A DNA stretch of 64,000 bases from Promicromonospora thailandica. GTDB lineage: Bacteria; Actinomycetota; Actinomycetes; Actinomycetales; Cellulomonadaceae. The stretch lies in assembly GCF_024171955.1 (NCBI RefSeq), contig NZ_JAMTCS010000015.1, positions 124,001 through 188,000 of the forward strand, given 5' to 3'. Positions 3,061-57,250 of this stretch are shown here, piece by piece. Each line of letters starts with the position of its first letter. Positions within the stretch are counted from its first letter, which is position 1. The translations under genes and the position numbers were made by a program. The notes under the pieces are model-generated. The model was not told where the DNA came from. It did not search any database and saw nothing but the letters and a program-made list of their open reading frames with translations.

Positions 3061-3082
3061 GTAGACGTACTAGTTCGTCTAC
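3061..3082. promoter_or_regulatory. 22-bp palindrome upstream of the secreted hydrolase
   Basis: Arms GTAGACG and CGTCTAC flank an ACTAGT core; 20 of 22 positions are symmetric. It ends 29 bp before the ATG of the hydrolase at 3112, a natural place for a repressor site at the promoter. The sequence resembles TetR-type operators but does not match the palindromes upstream of the neighbouring TetR gene, so a regulator encoded elsewhere may bind here. Confidence 0.55.
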
Positions 3083-3970: not shown

Positions 3971-4084
3971 GCCGAGATCTGGCGTCCAGCTGCCGAGATC
4001 TGGTGTCTGCGCCGAGATCTGGTGGTGCACCGCCAGATCTCGGCGCGGGCACCAGATCTCGGCGCGGCAGTACCAGATCTCGGC
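3971..4084. repeat. Symmetric six-copy AGATCT palindromic array (REP-like element A)
   Basis: Three direct copies of GCCGAGATCTGG start at 3971, 3992 and 4011. Three inverted copies, CCAGATCTCGGC, start at 4033, 4052 and 4073. Every pair is exactly symmetric about position 4027.5, with repeat steps of 21, 19, 19 and 21 bp, and the centre is GGTGCACC. The whole can fold into one imperfect hairpin with arms of 57 bases whose mismatches fall only between the conserved blocks. It fills most of the 251-bp gap between the hydrolase and the DUF4383 gene. A terminator or REP-type element is likely; the function is not known. Confidence 0.85.
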
Positions 4085-52058: not shown

Positions 52059-53933
52059 TCACCCGCCCAGCCGCCGCGCGAGCCCGGTCGCGCGCCGCGC
52101 CCGCCGCCCCACGGCCGCCCGCACCGCCTCCGGCGTGCCGACCACGCGCACGCGCCGCCGGGCGCGGGTCACCGCGGTGTAGAAGAGCTCGCGCGTGAGC
52201 AGCGGCGACGACTCGTCCGGCAGCAGCACGGTCACGACGTCGGCCTGGCTGCCCTGGCTCTTGTGCACGGTCATGGCGTGCAGCGTCTCTACGTCGCCGA
52301 GGCGGGACACCGCGAACGACCTGCCGCTGCCGAGGTGCGCGCGCAGGGTCTCGCCGTCGGCCACCACCACGCCGGTGTCGCCGTTGTGCAGGCCCAGGCT
52401 GTAGTCGTTGGCCGTGACCAGCACCGGGCGCCCGGCGTACCACTCCGTGCCGCCGGCGCCGAGGTAGGTGCCGGAGGCCTCGCCGAGCCGGCGCTCGACC
52501 AGCCGGTTCCAGTGCGCGGCACCCCACGGCCCGTCCCGGTGCGCGCACAGCAGCCGGTGCTGCTCGGCCAGGTCGACGGCGCCGTCCGCGTCGCCCGCCA
52601 GGGCTCGGCGCCGCACGTCGAGCGCGTGTCGGGCCAGCTCGTCCTGGAGGGCCGCCGTCGCGGCGGCGTCGTCGGGGTGGACCAGCTCGACCACGCCGTC
52701 GGCGCCGGTCAGCGCCCCGAGGACGGCGTCGGGGTCGCCGGCCTGGACGGCGGCGGCCAGTCGCGTGATCCCGGCGCTCTCGGACCGGTGGTCGGTCACC
52801 AGCGCGGCCACGACGCCGTCGTCCCGCTGCCCCAGGCCGGCCACGAGGTCGGCGAGCACCGCGCCCGCCTCGACCGACGCGAGCTGGTCGGGGTCGCCCA
52901 CGAGCACGAGGCGGGCGTCGGGGCGCACCGCCTCCAGCAGCCGGGCCATGAGGGTGAGGGAGACCATCGAGGTCTCGTCCACCACGACCACGTCGTGCGG
53001 CAGGCGGTTGGAGCGGTCGTGCCGGAACCGGGTGCTGGACCCGGGCCGCCACCCCAGCAGCCGGTGCAGCGTGCTCGCCTGGACCCCCGCGAGCCGCCGC
53101 CGGTCGAGGTCGGTGAACCGACCCCCCGCCAGATCGGTCGCCTGCCCCGAGATCGGTCGGTCGAGCGACCGATCTCGGGGCAGCGGACCGATCTCGCTCG
53201 CGACCGCCTCCTGCAGGCGCGCGGCCGCCTTGCCGGTCGGGGCGGCGAGCGCGATGCGCAGGCGGCGCCCGGCGTGCTCGGCCTGCTCGGCCAGGAGCGC
53301 CAGCACGCCGGCCACCGTCGTCGTCTTGCCGCGGCCGGGACCGCCCGTGAGCACGGTGGTCAGGTGGCGCGCGACGGCGGTCGCGGCCGCCCGCTGCTCG
53401 GCGTACGCGTCACCCGGGAACAGCCGCGCCGCGCTGTCCCGGAGCAGGGCGTCGTCGACCGCGGGGGCCGGGGCCGCGAGCCGGGCCGCGAGGTCCTCGT
53501 GCACCTGCCTCTCCTCGCGCCAGTACCGGTCGAGGTAGAGCAGCCCGAGGTCGGCCCGCACCACCGAGCGCCGTGCCAGCGGGCTCGCGGCGACACGGTC
53601 GAGCCACCCGCCCGCGGCGGGCCAGGGCAGGGGCGGGGCGTCGTCGGCGGCGGTGCTGCCGGCCGCGCCGTCTCCGGCCACCGCGCCCAGGTCCACGCAC
53701 ACCGACCCCTGCCGCACCGCGCGCACCGCGAGCGCGACGGCGAGCCGCACGCTCTCGTCGTCCTCGCCGGCGACGTCGGCCGTGCGGCGGGCGACGTGGA
53801 CGTCGGCGGCGGTGAGCACGCCCGCGTCGTTGAAGGCGCGCAGCAGCCCCGTCGCGCCGAGCGCACGGCGGGCGTCGTGCGGGTCGTCGCCGGCCCAGCG
53901 CTCGATACCTGACCCCGTGCCGGACCTCGTCAT
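52059..53933 (-). CDS. recD: Exodeoxyribonuclease V subunit alpha, RecD helicase
   Basis: A 624-residue SF1B helicase. ATG 53933 overlaps the recB stop (ATGA). Motifs: Walker A LTGGPGRGKTTTVAG (about 196-210), Ia ALAAPTGKAAARLQEA, Walker B VVVDETSMVSL, LVGDPDQLASVEAG, and motif VI region TVHKSQGSQADVVTVLLP. RecD is the fast 5'-3' motor of RecBCD that processes double-strand breaks. Residues 247-268 are unusual: they are encoded by a symmetric palindromic element (53131-53194), giving PLPRDRSLDRPISGQATD between helicase motifs Ia and the next conserved block. Otherwise normal in length. Confidence 0.95.
   Translation of the reverse strand: MTRSGTGSGIERWAGDDPHDARRALGATGLLRAFNDAGVLTAADVHVARRTADVAGEDDESVRLAVALAVRAVRQGSVCVDLGAVAGDGAAGSTAADDAPPLPWPAAGGWLDRVAASPLARRSVVRADLGLLYLDRYWREERQVHEDLAARLAAPAPAVDDALLRDSAARLFPGDAYAEQRAAATAVARHLTTVLTGGPGRGKTTTVAGVLALLAEQAEHAGRRLRIALAAPTGKAAARLQEAVASEIGPLPRDRSLDRPISGQATDLAGGRFTDLDRRRLAGVQASTLHRLLGWRPGSSTRFRHDRSNRLPHDVVVVDETSMVSLTLMARLLEAVRPDARLVLVGDPDQLASVEAGAVLADLVAGLGQRDDGVVAALVTDHRSESAGITRLAAAVQAGDPDAVLGALTGADGVVELVHPDDAAATAALQDELARHALDVRRRALAGDADGAVDLAEQHRLLCAHRDGPWGAAHWNRLVERRLGEASGTYLGAGGTEWYAGRPVLVTANDYSLGLHNGDTGVVVADGETLRAHLGSGRSFAVSRLGDVETLHAMTVHKSQGSQADVVTVLLPDESSPLLTRELFYTAVTRARRRVRVVGTPEAVRAAVGRRARRATGLARRLGG
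53131..53194. repeat. Palindromic element C inside recD
   Basis: Inner perfect arms CTGCCCCGAGATCGGTCG (53142-53159) and its complement (53166-53183) with loop GTCGAG; outer half-sites AGATCGGTC (53131-53139) and GACCGATCT (53186-53194) are placed symmetrically about 53162.5. The half-site step is 19 bp, like the AGATCT array at 3971-4084. It is in frame within recD. Confidence 0.85.
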
Positions 53934-56900
53934 GCCGCCACCTCCCCCGCGGTGCCCGCCAGCAGGTCCGACAGCGCCACCAGGAGCGCGGCCGGCGGCT
54001 GCCACGACAGCACGCCCGCCGGGCTGCCGCCGGCGTCCGGGGTGTCCGGCCCGGCCATACCGCGCACGAACAGGTAGAGCACGCCGCCCAAGTGGGTCCC
54101 CGGGTCGTAGCCCGGCAGCCGCCAGCGCAGGTAGCGGTGCAGCACCACCCCGTACAGCAGGGCCTGCAGCGGGTAGTGGGAGTGCAGCATGGCCTCCGCC
54201 ATCCGCTCGTGGGAGTAGTCGGCCACGGCGGGGCCCAGGAAGTTCGTCTTGTAGTCGACGACGACGAACCGCCCGCCCGGCAGACGGAGCACCACGTCGA
54301 CCGAGCCGGTGAGGTAGCCGCGCAGGGGCTGGTCCCCCAGGTCGGGCTGCTCGAGGCGCTCGGCGTAGGCGGCGAGCGGGTCACCGGCGGGCAGGTGGGC
54401 GCGCAGCAGGGGCGCGAGGTCGCGCAGCCGCGCCTCCGTACCGCCGTCGCCCGTCAGGTCGCCGCCGGACAGCGGCAGCTCGAAGGTCAGCTCGCGCAGC
54501 CGGTCCGGCAGCCCGATCTCGCCCAGCGTCAGACCGTTCGCCAGCGGGCCGAGCGGGGTGCGGTGCAGCGGCAGCAGGCCGTCGGCGACCGCCTCGGGGT
54601 CGGCGGGCACGGGCCACCAGCGCAGCTGCTCGGTGACGTGCGCCAGCAGCTCGGCGCGCAGGTCGGGCGCGAAGGGGTCGGCGTGCTCGAGCACCGCGTG
54701 CACGAGCGAGCCGAATGCGGCGCCCGTGGGCAGGTCGGCCATCGGCGAGGCCGCCTCCGGCCGACCAGGCGCACCGGCGGCGGCCTCGGGGGCATCCGGC
54801 TCGTCGTCGGTGCCCGTGGTCTCGGGCTCGCTGCCCACGTGCGGGGCGTCGTCCGCCGCCGCGATCAGGCCGCTGTAGGAGGTGCGGCGCCAGGCGGTGT
54901 CGACGGCGCGCCCGAAGGCACGCACCTCGAACGGGGCGTGCCGGTCCGCGGGCAGGGGCGCCGAGGCCTCGACGGGCACGGCGAGCTCGGCCGCGGGGCC
55001 GCCCAGCTCCTGGAGCAGGCCGAGCACGCGCGTCGCGTACTCGTCGTCCTTGAGCGGCTGTGTGCCGGGCACCTCGCGCGTGCCGGGCGTGCGGCCGAAC
55101 AGGAGCCGGTGCAGCCCGCTGGTCGGGGTGCTGGACGTGGGCGCCCACCACGCCACGACCTGCGACTGGGCACGCGTCAGAGCCACGTAGAGCTTGCGGA
55201 GCTCCTCGCCGTCCTCCTCGGCGCGGTGCGCGGCGCAGCGGGCGTCCCACTGCGCGCCGGAGCCGGAGACGTCGATCGTCCGGGCGCCGTGCTCGTCGTG
55301 GTAGAGCGCGATGTCGACCGGCCGCGCGTAGTTGTCGTAGCCGAACGGCAGGTACACGACGGGGTACTGCAGCCCCTTGCTGCCGTGCACCGTGACGATC
55401 TGCACGGCAGCGGCGTCGGAGTCCAGGCGCCGGGGCCGCTCGGCGGTGCCCGCCCGGCGCCGCTCGTCGCGGAACCAGGCCAGCAGGGCGGTCAGGCCGA
55501 GCGACTCGGCCACGCTCACCTCGTGCAGCAGCTGACCCAGGTGGCGCAGGTCGGTCAGCAGCCGCTCGCCCTCGGCGCCGGCCAGCACCCGGCCGCTCAG
55601 CCCCCGCTCCTCCGCGGCCTCCAGCAGCGCGGCCACGCCGCGGTGCCGCAGCAGCAGCGCCCAGCCGCGCAGGGTGTCGGCGTCGCGGGCGGTCAGGTCC
55701 TCCCCGCCGGCGTCCAGGTCGGCCGCGGTGCGCCCGAGGAACGGCGTGAGGGCCGCCGCGCGCACGAGGCCCGCGCGGTGCGGGGACTCCAGGGCCTCGA
55801 GCAGCGTGAGCCAGTCGTCGGCGGCGGGGGTCTCGAACACGTCGCCGCCCGGCATGACGGCCGCGACGCCGCGCTCGGCGAGCGCGTCCTGCACCAGCCG
55901 GCCGTGGGCCCGCGCCGACACGAGCACGGCGACGTCGCCGGGCAGCAGCGGGCGTCCGTCCCAGGTGGCGCCCGAGGCGAGCAGGTTCGCGACGTCGGCG
56001 GCCAGGTCCCCCGCGACGTGCCGGCGGGCGGCGCCCACCTGGATCGCGCCGCTGCGGACCGTGGGCAGCCCCTCGCGCAGCACCTGGCGCAGCCGGAACG
56101 GCTCCGGGTGCGGCGCACCGGTCAGCCGGCTCGTGCGGCCCTCCGCCCCGCCCTCCGCGACCACCGGGTGCACCACGATCTCGGCGTGGCCGAGCGCCGC
56201 GTTGCCCAGCAGCACCGCGAGGGTCTCGACCAGGGGCGCGTCCGAGCGCCAGTTGCTGCCCAGCGTGGCACGCGTGCCGGCGTGCCGGGCGGCGTCGAGG
56301 TAGGCCACGACGTCGCCGCCGCGAAACGCGTAGATGGCCTGCTTGGGGTCGCCGACCAGCACCATGGCACCCGCGGTGCGCCCCTGGGCACCCCCGAAGG
56401 CGCGCTCCAGCACCTGCCACTGCACGGGATCGGTGTCCTGGAACTCGTCGACCAGCACCACCGCCCAGCGGTCCCGCATCCGCGCCCCGACGGCGGCCCC
56501 GCCGTCGCCCGACGCCGGGTCGAGGGCGTCCGCGAGCCGCCCGAGCAGGTCGTCGTACGAGAGGATGCCGAGGCGCCGCTTGCGCCGCTCCATCTCGTCC
56601 CGCACCTCGCGGGCGAACGCGACCCGCGCGGAGCCGACGGCGTCCTCCGGGTCGGCGTCGGCCAGGGCCGCGCGCGGGTCCTCGACGGCGGCCGTGGCGA
56701 CCTTGAGGGCGCACGCCCGGTCGAAGGGCGGCGGCTCGGGCGCGTTGCCGTACCGCCGCAGGTAGAGGTCGTCGACCACCTCGACGGTGAGCTCGGTCAG
56801 CGACTCGACCAGCTCGGCGCCCGGCTCGGTGTCGCCTGCCACGCCCAGGGAGCGCAGCACAAGCTGGCAGAACTGGTGGATCGTGGCGATGGTGGCGTGG

Positions 56901-57250
56901 TCGAACGAGGCCAGGGCGTCGGACAGGCGACGGTGCCGGGCGGCCCGCTCGGCGTCGTCCACGTCGAGCAGCGCCGCCAGGACGGCGTCCACGGGGCCGG
57001 TGTCCCGCCCGGCCAGCGCGGCGGCGAACGTCCGCTCGGCCCGCAGCAGGGCGCCCCGGACCCGGTCGCGCAGCTCCTGCGTGGCGGCGCGGCCGAAGGT
57101 GACCACGAGCATCTGGTCCAGGGGCACCACGCCCTCGGCGACGTACCGGGTCACCAGGGCGCCGATCGCGAAGGTCTTGCCGGTGCCCGCGCTGGCCTCC
57201 AGCAGCGCGGTACCGCGGGGCAGGGGCCCGGCGAGGTCGAAGACGTCCAT
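53930..57250 (-). CDS. recB: Exodeoxyribonuclease V subunit beta, RecB helicase-nuclease
   Basis: A 1106-residue SF1A helicase with C-terminal nuclease. Walker A ASAGTGKT at residues 19-26, Walker B VVLVDEFQDTDPVQW, GDPKQAIYAFRGGD, TVHGSKGLQYPVVYLPFG, and the RecB nuclease motif FVVVDYKTNFLG with its Asp and Lys. It has the 3'-5' motor and the nuclease that generate the 3' tail for RecA. Gene order recC-recB-recD with a 27-bp recC/recB gap and a 4-base recB/recD overlap indicates one operon. Confidence 0.96.
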   Translation of the reverse strand: MDVFDLAGPLPRGTALLEASAGTGKTFAIGALVTRYVAEGVVPLDQMLVVTFGRAATQELRDRVRGALLRAERTFAAALAGRDTGPVDAVLAALLDVDDAERAARHRRLSDALASFDHATIATIHQFCQLVLRSLGVAGDTEPGAELVESLTELTVEVVDDLYLRRYGNAPEPPPFDRACALKVATAAVEDPRAALADADPEDAVGSARVAFAREVRDEMERRKRRLGILSYDDLLGRLADALDPASGDGGAAVGARMRDRWAVVLVDEFQDTDPVQWQVLERAFGGAQGRTAGAMVLVGDPKQAIYAFRGGDVVAYLDAARHAGTRATLGSNWRSDAPLVETLAVLLGNAALGHAEIVVHPVVAEGGAEGRTSRLTGAPHPEPFRLRQVLREGLPTVRSGAIQVGAARRHVAGDLAADVANLLASGATWDGRPLLPGDVAVLVSARAHGRLVQDALAERGVAAVMPGGDVFETPAADDWLTLLEALESPHRAGLVRAAALTPFLGRTAADLDAGGEDLTARDADTLRGWALLLRHRGVAALLEAAEERGLSGRVLAGAEGERLLTDLRHLGQLLHEVSVAESLGLTALLAWFRDERRRAGTAERPRRLDSDAAAVQIVTVHGSKGLQYPVVYLPFGYDNYARPVDIALYHDEHGARTIDVSGSGAQWDARCAAHRAEEDGEELRKLYVALTRAQSQVVAWWAPTSSTPTSGLHRLLFGRTPGTREVPGTQPLKDDEYATRVLGLLQELGGPAAELAVPVEASAPLPADRHAPFEVRAFGRAVDTAWRRTSYSGLIAAADDAPHVGSEPETTGTDDEPDAPEAAAGAPGRPEAASPMADLPTGAAFGSLVHAVLEHADPFAPDLRAELLAHVTEQLRWWPVPADPEAVADGLLPLHRTPLGPLANGLTLGEIGLPDRLRELTFELPLSGGDLTGDGGTEARLRDLAPLLRAHLPAGDPLAAYAERLEQPDLGDQPLRGYLTGSVDVVLRLPGGRFVVVDYKTNFLGPAVADYSHERMAEAMLHSHYPLQALLYGVVLHRYLRWRLPGYDPGTHLGGVLYLFVRGMAGPDTPDAGGSPAGVLSWQPPAALLVALSDLLAGTAGEVAA

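Follow-up and report, generated by a model that had tools for sequence, protein, structure and literature searches.

A palindromic repeat element within recD of Promicromonospora thailandica as one copy of a dispersed repeat family

How does a palindrome with perfect 18-bp arms come to be translated in frame as part of RecD? The question is raised by a short segment of Promicromonospora thailandica DNA, and our analysis of the 64,000-nucleotide stretch that contains it (contig NZ_JAMTCS010000015.1, positions 124,001 to 188,000; the window in what follows) and of related genomes indicates that the recD palindrome belongs to a family of palindromic repeats scattered over the genome. The host open reading frame is RecD, scoring 475.8 bits against TIGR01447, for which the cut-off is 310.15. 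An initial annotation, made from the sequence alone, had described perfect arms, a 6-base loop and symmetric outer half-sites, and direct reading and folding bear out all of this: the two arms are perfectly complementary over 18 bp, the loop between them is GTCGAG (53160-53165), and the half-sites AGATCGGTC and GACCGATCT share the arms' centre of symmetry (Table 1). The predicted fold of the 66-mer consists of two helices of 18 and 9 pairs, matching the arms and the half-sites, and has an energy of -57.4 kcal/mol as compared to a mean of -26.57 (sd 3.49) for shuffled sequences, none of the 200 shuffles being as good. On the coding strand the element runs from window position 53195 to 53130 as 22 codons reading EIGPLPRDRSLDRPISGQATDL; the residue numbers 247-268 previously assigned to the segment are correct counting from the start at 53933, and correspond to 271-292 of the 648-residue frame that opens at 54005.

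Table 1. Features of the window discussed in the text, with the basis for each.
Feature	Position	Strand	Basis
recD (exodeoxyribonuclease V alpha), host gene; alternative in-frame upstream start 54005	52059..53933	-	ORF, TIGR01447, coding score
recB-like gene, immediately upstream of recD with a 4-bp overlap; name recB from sequence reading	53930..57250	-	ORF, coding score
Palindromic repeat element, 66 bp, 22 codons (EIGPLPRDRSLDRPISGQATDL), within recD	53130..53195	-	sequence, alignment, covariation, folding
30-bp core CGAGATCGGTC-8-GACCGATCTCG	53148..53177	.	genome-wide core pattern matched exactly
Left perfect 18-bp arm	53142..53159	+	sequence reading and folding
Right perfect 18-bp arm	53166..53183	+	sequence reading and folding
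Outer half-site AGATCGGTC	53131..53139	+	sequence reading and folding
Outer half-site GACCGATCT	53186..53194	+	sequence reading and folding
Array between genes, made of six mirror-ordered GAGATCTGG units (sister family B)	3971..4084	.	sequence, genome-wide cores

The unit GAGATCGGTC occurs 127 times (64 + 63) in the 5.38-Mb genome, while its reversed control occurs once (1 + 0), and the core CGAGATCGGTC-8-GACCGATCTCG is found 58 times at up to 3 mismatches with no match for its control. The arm therefore recurs genome-wide, and the possibility that it might be found nowhere else is refuted. We read 53 of the 58 cores and 118 of the 127 units in their context; we excluded five further hits (L413, L417, L033, L039, L060), each a lone match in coding sequence that lacks the element peptide. 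Cores are present in all 13 genus genomes, from 3 to 51 each at up to 2 mismatches, with none for the controls. Among genomes of named species the exact core was found in 47 stretches, 44 of them from Promicromonospora, two from Cellulosimicrobium sp. Marseille-Q4280 and one from Isoptericola sp. QY 916. Extended elements also form tandem arrays at two loci, at 3065, 3282 and 3499 in L168 (a spacing of 217 bp) and at 2853 and 3037 in L172 (184 bp), both in long gaps without called genes.

Where does the repeat unit end? Across the 53 copies of the genome itself (own copies), the two sides pair at a high rate out to position -18 and at a partly raised rate at -19; from -20 outwards the rate is that of the background, except for a second, weak increase around -40 to -45, where outer half-sites are present in some copies. 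Since pairing falls to background beyond position 19, we take the unit to be about 66 bp long, a multiple of three. The palindrome originally placed at 53131-53194 stands as such, but pairing across the own copies makes the 66 bp from 53130 to 53195 the better unit. The consensus of these 66 bp begins with GAG and ends with CTC, and bears neither a GTAG nor a CGTC tag. Moreover, the arms covary. Positions -1 to -18, which lie outside the searched pattern, pair in 68-100% of the own copies and in 56-97% of 103 copies from relatives, which behave like the own ones. At variable positions the pairing of own copies exceeds column expectation (0.70 against 0.40 at -8, 0.70 against 0.34 at -15), and at position -2 the relatives' copies pair at 0.85 with 0.31 expected, using four pair types. 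In outline, the element is a stem of at most 29 bp, imperfectly paired, around an 8-base centre, with further outer half-sites in some copies. Its arms may stay complementary because other copies renew them through repeated insertion or gene conversion, because the hairpin acts as a template for correction, or because the hairpin itself is under selection.

A likeness between the recD palindrome and the array at the beginning of the window had been pointed out, and it holds for the geometry though not for the family. The array belongs to a sister family, B, whose core GAGATCTGGYN8RCCAGATCTC occurs 20 times in the genome, the array included; as in the family of the recD element (family A), a 28-bp core of two inverted 10-mers is followed by the next unit about 19 bp further out. 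None of the 19 family B cores that were examined, out of the 20, lies inside a gene.

Within RecD the element occupies the variable linker that joins motif Ia to the conserved block following it, and appears as an insert inside the AAA_19 match. The claim that other RecD proteins lack such a segment was confirmed by alignment: none of 21 other RecD-like proteins, seven of them from the genus (one truncated), contains the palindromic peptide. The linker measures 27 residues here versus 13 in three genomes of the genus (G002, G005, G009) and 19 in a fourth (G007), a net gain of 14 or 8 residues respectively, and alignment to E. coli RecD (1w36_D) leaves a 20-residue gap at the element. Because the 21 proteins lack the segment, the linkers of the four genus genomes are shorter and the E. 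coli protein shows this gap, the segment looks new in its own RecD lineage, with about 8 residues of the former linker apparently gone or unalignable. Absence in relatives thus stands, while the clean insertion of 20-22 residues that had been anticipated agrees with the E. coli gap but not with the net gains within the genus. As a separate matter, no RecD match beyond the element peptide turned up in five of the 13 genus genomes (G001, G003, G006, G010, G011) among the at most 20 candidates scored, and the G010 assembly is 83% complete; either the distribution of recD over Promicromonospora is patchy or a first-pass search of this depth missed the gene.

RecD is one of six own hosts, the others being an Ada-AlkA fusion, an MrfA-like helicase, a HemG-like oxidase, an MpaB/Lcp-like protein and an ATPase-like protein. 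In the Ada-AlkA fusion the element forms residues 217-238, between HTH_18 (133-212) and AlkA_N (246-367), and in the helicase residues 670-691, between DEAD (433-618) and Helicase_C (732-843). It lies at 638-659 of the HemG-like protein (amine oxidase by its Pfam name), beyond the matched part 364-626, and at 236-257 of the MpaB/Lcp-like protein, ahead of the matched part 317-529; the sixth host has no Pfam match and is ATPase-like by eye. The element peptide is alike in these unrelated proteins, the own in-gene copies sharing the polar sequence E[IV]GxLxRDRSxxxPxSxQx[TA][DE]x. Three of the six host genes are repair genes (RecD, Ada-AlkA and the MrfA-like helicase, MrfA being a protein that we take to act in DNA repair). 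Outside the genome, a TilS-like protein of Promicromonospora umidemergens (L235:5887-7401) carries a copy between two Pfam domains, in phase 2.

All six own in-gene copies use one reading frame, phase 0. Over 125 distinct sites there are nine in-gene copies, eight in phase 0 and one, that of TilS, in phase 2; three of the eight occupy the same Ada-AlkA position in three species, and counted by gene position the ratio is 6 to 1, for which a simple binomial on seven positions gives about 0.007 for the named phase and 0.02 for any phase. Of the 125 sites, 18 are in loci retrieved by a profile of the phase-0 peptide and 4 in loci from the RecD search; all nine copies stem from other loci, and the test does not include the further in-gene copies that profile or orthologue loci yielded. 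The in-gene counts use a relaxed flank threshold, the stricter one giving three in-gene copies (one of them L047). Could the bias simply reflect avoidance of stop codons? Phase 0 is free of stops in 79 of 106 own strand-copies, the other phases in 95 and 94, and among 144 strand-copies of relatives the corresponding numbers are 100, 133 and 119; the variant TGAGATC, for instance, places TGA in phase 0. Phase 0 thus carries the most stops, and stop avoidance is ruled out.

One might also imagine that the segment never reaches the protein, the 66 nt being left out by the ribosome or by RNA processing, as in translational bypassing. The message would contain a strong hairpin and the sequence is compatible with skipping, but an element that is stop-free and a multiple of three needs no skipping, and a single frame in all six own copies would be unnecessary if the element were skipped. 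We give this explanation next to no credence. We suppose that the segment is translated. Because its length is a multiple of three and it is mostly free of stops, the 66-bp element can be tolerated in an open reading frame where the insertion falls into a loop or between domains. For recD, the insertion would probably have added an exposed loop without abolishing function.

What was the history of these in-gene copies across the genus? The Ada-AlkA fusion has a copy at the same linker in seven genomes and none in five (one fragmentary), HemG has a copy in seven and none in four (two fragmentary), and for MpaB, with orthology judged by eye, a copy was found in each of the four genomes covered. 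In eight of the 13 genomes the MrfA-like helicase has the element complete, with all 22 residues, at one shared position; three more (L318, L321, L322) have decayed remnants, and L323 and L324 lack the element. Cells changed on both sides of a pair number 26 of 231 in Ada-AlkA, 15 of 231 in HemG, 13 of 132 in MpaB and 5 of 264 in the helicase, and unpaired cells 32, 34, 19 and 69 in the same order. The median numbers of differences to own versus orthologous copies are 12 and 16 for Ada-AlkA, 15 and 19 for HemG, 22 and 20 for MpaB, and 18 and 12 for the helicase. After correction for set size (about 50 own against 3-7 orthologous copies), random samples of own copies, drawn at equal size, come closer than the nearest orthologous copy in 77%, 81%, 63% and 26% of the draws, respectively. 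Since the Ada-AlkA and HemG copies are nearer to own than to orthologous copies, we lean towards recurrent insertion or within-genome copying for these two; the helicase copy, being nearer to its orthologues and showing so few double changes, looks like one old insertion, ancestral in the genus and now decaying. A single old insertion behind all in-gene copies is accordingly disfavoured for Ada-AlkA and HemG by the distances, and kept for the helicase; for MpaB the distances lean neither way. In one genome (G003, L288) three consecutive EVGTSLTSGA stretches precede the element in the Ada-AlkA linker and look like a tandem duplication of half-units.

These histories bear on two further explanations. 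It could be argued that these proteins have long had the palindromic segment as a working part and that nothing was inserted at all, for which the helicase, with its widely kept full form, additional remnants and seemingly ancestral copy, offers an argument. However, the same peptide occurs in unrelated proteins and its DNA is a repeat that resides mostly between genes; the helicase copy, decayed or lacking in five genomes, is dispensable there; and for recD the explanation is disfavoured by the 21 proteins that lack the segment. We therefore find it very improbable. Alternatively, the element might re-colonise or be re-copied into the same linkers in different species and then be kept palindromic by within-genome homogenisation or hairpin-templated correction, with the coding segment evolving by copying from intergenic repeats. 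Its presence in repair genes, which unrelated REP families share with recBCD, uvrA and others as hosts, would then mark a real link, for example control of repair-gene expression through the hairpin, or capture of the element while DNA is repaired. Copy distances support re-colonisation of the same linkers for Ada-AlkA and HemG, but not for the helicase, and this combination of claims seems to us unlikely.

Most copies lie outside genes. The gene caller was a purpose-written codon-score program trained on 27 long open reading frames of the window, and one of the 53 rows, the first copy of L150, which is cut by the locus end and is the same site as L178, was dropped from gene-context scoring. 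In addition to the six own copies inside open reading frames, 47 are intergenic, with 26 between tandem, 17 between convergent and 4 between divergent genes, where comparison gaps of at least 20 bp within the window number 19, 13 and 18. Relatives' copies divide into 53 tandem, 25 convergent, 14 divergent, 7 in-gene by position alone, and 4 at a locus edge. Where an own copy is flanked by a gene's 3' end, it lies within 50 bp of that end in 30 of 43 cases, compared with 2 of 30 for 5' ends. Near position 2990 of L177 (contig 5 of the same genome) the TGA of a TGAGATCGG variant appears to serve as the stop codon of a gene, giving the C-terminus DVGQLP.

With this usual seat near gene 3' ends, transcripts there would bear a strong hairpin. 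Could the repeats then be primarily functional 3' RNA hairpins, that is, bidirectional terminators or stabilisers of mRNA 3' ends under selection, with the in-gene copies being accidents or fusions over former 3' ends? The closeness to 3' rather than 5' ends, the shortage of divergent placements relative to the window's gaps, the very stable hairpin with covarying arms, and the gene that ends on the element's own stop codon all speak for such a role. Against this, the consensus lacks the T-rich stretch after the stem that the pattern of an intrinsic terminator (stem, then T run) calls for; long coding stretches, necessarily transcribed, follow the in-gene copies in recD and the other hosts; the number of cores varies from 3 to 51 between species; and five loci compared with Rfam gave no hit at or above a family's gathering score. 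The 12 sub-gathering Rfam hits on these loci are, where they fall on elements, to microRNA precursor models, and a known RNA family was set aside as an identity for the element. We regard a primary 3'-hairpin function as a tentative possibility, and as partly compatible, for the intergenic copies, with a mobile repeat.

Which brings us to how the repeat might have spread. Transposition by a RAYT enzyme was rejected, as Y1_Tnp (PF01797) is absent from all 13 genus genomes, the control search being positive in 5 of 14 named genomes. The neighbourhoods of 45 loci comprise 257 proteins, and by eye no shared family among these was transposase-like; the families shared by three or four loci are, again by eye, oxidoreductases, LacI-type regulators and similar proteins. 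No clear target-site duplication is seen in 188 copies, where there is a small excess of matches at 2-4 bases for some boundaries (at 3 bases, 9 with 4.6 expected) and isolated longer matches, and old copies can lose their duplications. A phage or plasmid origin was rejected, the exact core pattern being absent from viral contigs and a 70-base query of the recD copy finding no match in a plasmid collection. Taking the evidence together, we are rather confident that the element is a dispersed non-autonomous repeat that has multiplied in the genus and resides in frame in open reading frames, recD among them. We infer further that it would have moved as DNA through an enzyme acting in trans, that the segment is translated, and that its peptide is tolerated or mildly useful.

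Is there a known class to which such a non-autonomous repeat could belong? The initial annotation drew a parallel to the palindromic elements of Rickettsia, for which PMC10969869 describes 44 insertions in ten families. As in that description, the present element is a dispersed palindrome with in-frame copies in unrelated protein genes, a peptide conserved within the family and homologues in several species; likened by description in this way, the two nevertheless differ in host phylum, in length (66 bp here, about 150 bp there) and in the share of copies in genes (6 of 53 here, nearly half there, according to the same paper). In-frame residence in recD and five further own genes sustains the parallel, while the mostly intergenic placement makes the element resemble intragenic REPs at least as much. 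GTAG- and CGTC-tagged REPs, as described in PMC3733652, lie mostly between convergent or tandem genes near 3' ends, where they provide stop codons. According to the same paper, copies inside genes often code for 20-30 residues and are frequent in repair genes, recBCD among them, and two Xanthomonas species have one at about the same site of recB. For the GTAG class a RAYT (Y1_Tnp) transposase is hypothesised. Tandem and convergent placement near 3' ends, a supplied stop codon and repair-gene hosts are common to both systems, and the repair-gene share of hosts found here is in line with the published pattern. Unlike the REPs so described, our element has no end tag, consists of one 66-bp hairpin where theirs is a 20-40-bp unit, and comes from a genus in which no Y1 transposase was found in 13 genomes.

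Miniature inverted-repeat transposable elements are likewise short, dispersed inverted repeats without a transposase gene, but the present element is GC-rich, shows no clear target-site duplication and has no parent insertion sequence that we could find. PARCELs, as described in PMC2996958, are also palindromic DNA coding for protein; they are tandem repeats mainly in membrane proteins, however, while the Promicromonospora element is found as single insertions in enzymes. The paper cites Ogata 2000, 2002 and 2005, Claverie and Ogata 2003, and Suyama 2005, and mentions one plasmid PARCEL in Arthrobacter. Apart from this plasmid case, a literature search that covered subscription journals only a little turned up nothing on elements of this sort in Promicromonospora, nor on palindromic insertions that code for protein in Actinobacteria.

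More generally, a protein-coding palindromic repeat of the Rickettsia kind occurs both between and inside genes, sits in frame in unrelated proteins and is absent from orthologues. Each of these was found here, the last from recD (none of 21 others, with a length change that is not clean), from the helicase of L323 and L324, and from Ada-AlkA in five genomes. With our analysis, protein-coding palindromic repeats are now seen in an actinobacterial genus that is free-living and high in GC, and in a family without the known REP tags. Moreover, the 13 genomes provide a graded series of near-perfect, decayed and absent copies at the same protein positions, a comparison of which can address whether such insertions are tolerated junk or turn into useful parts of a protein.
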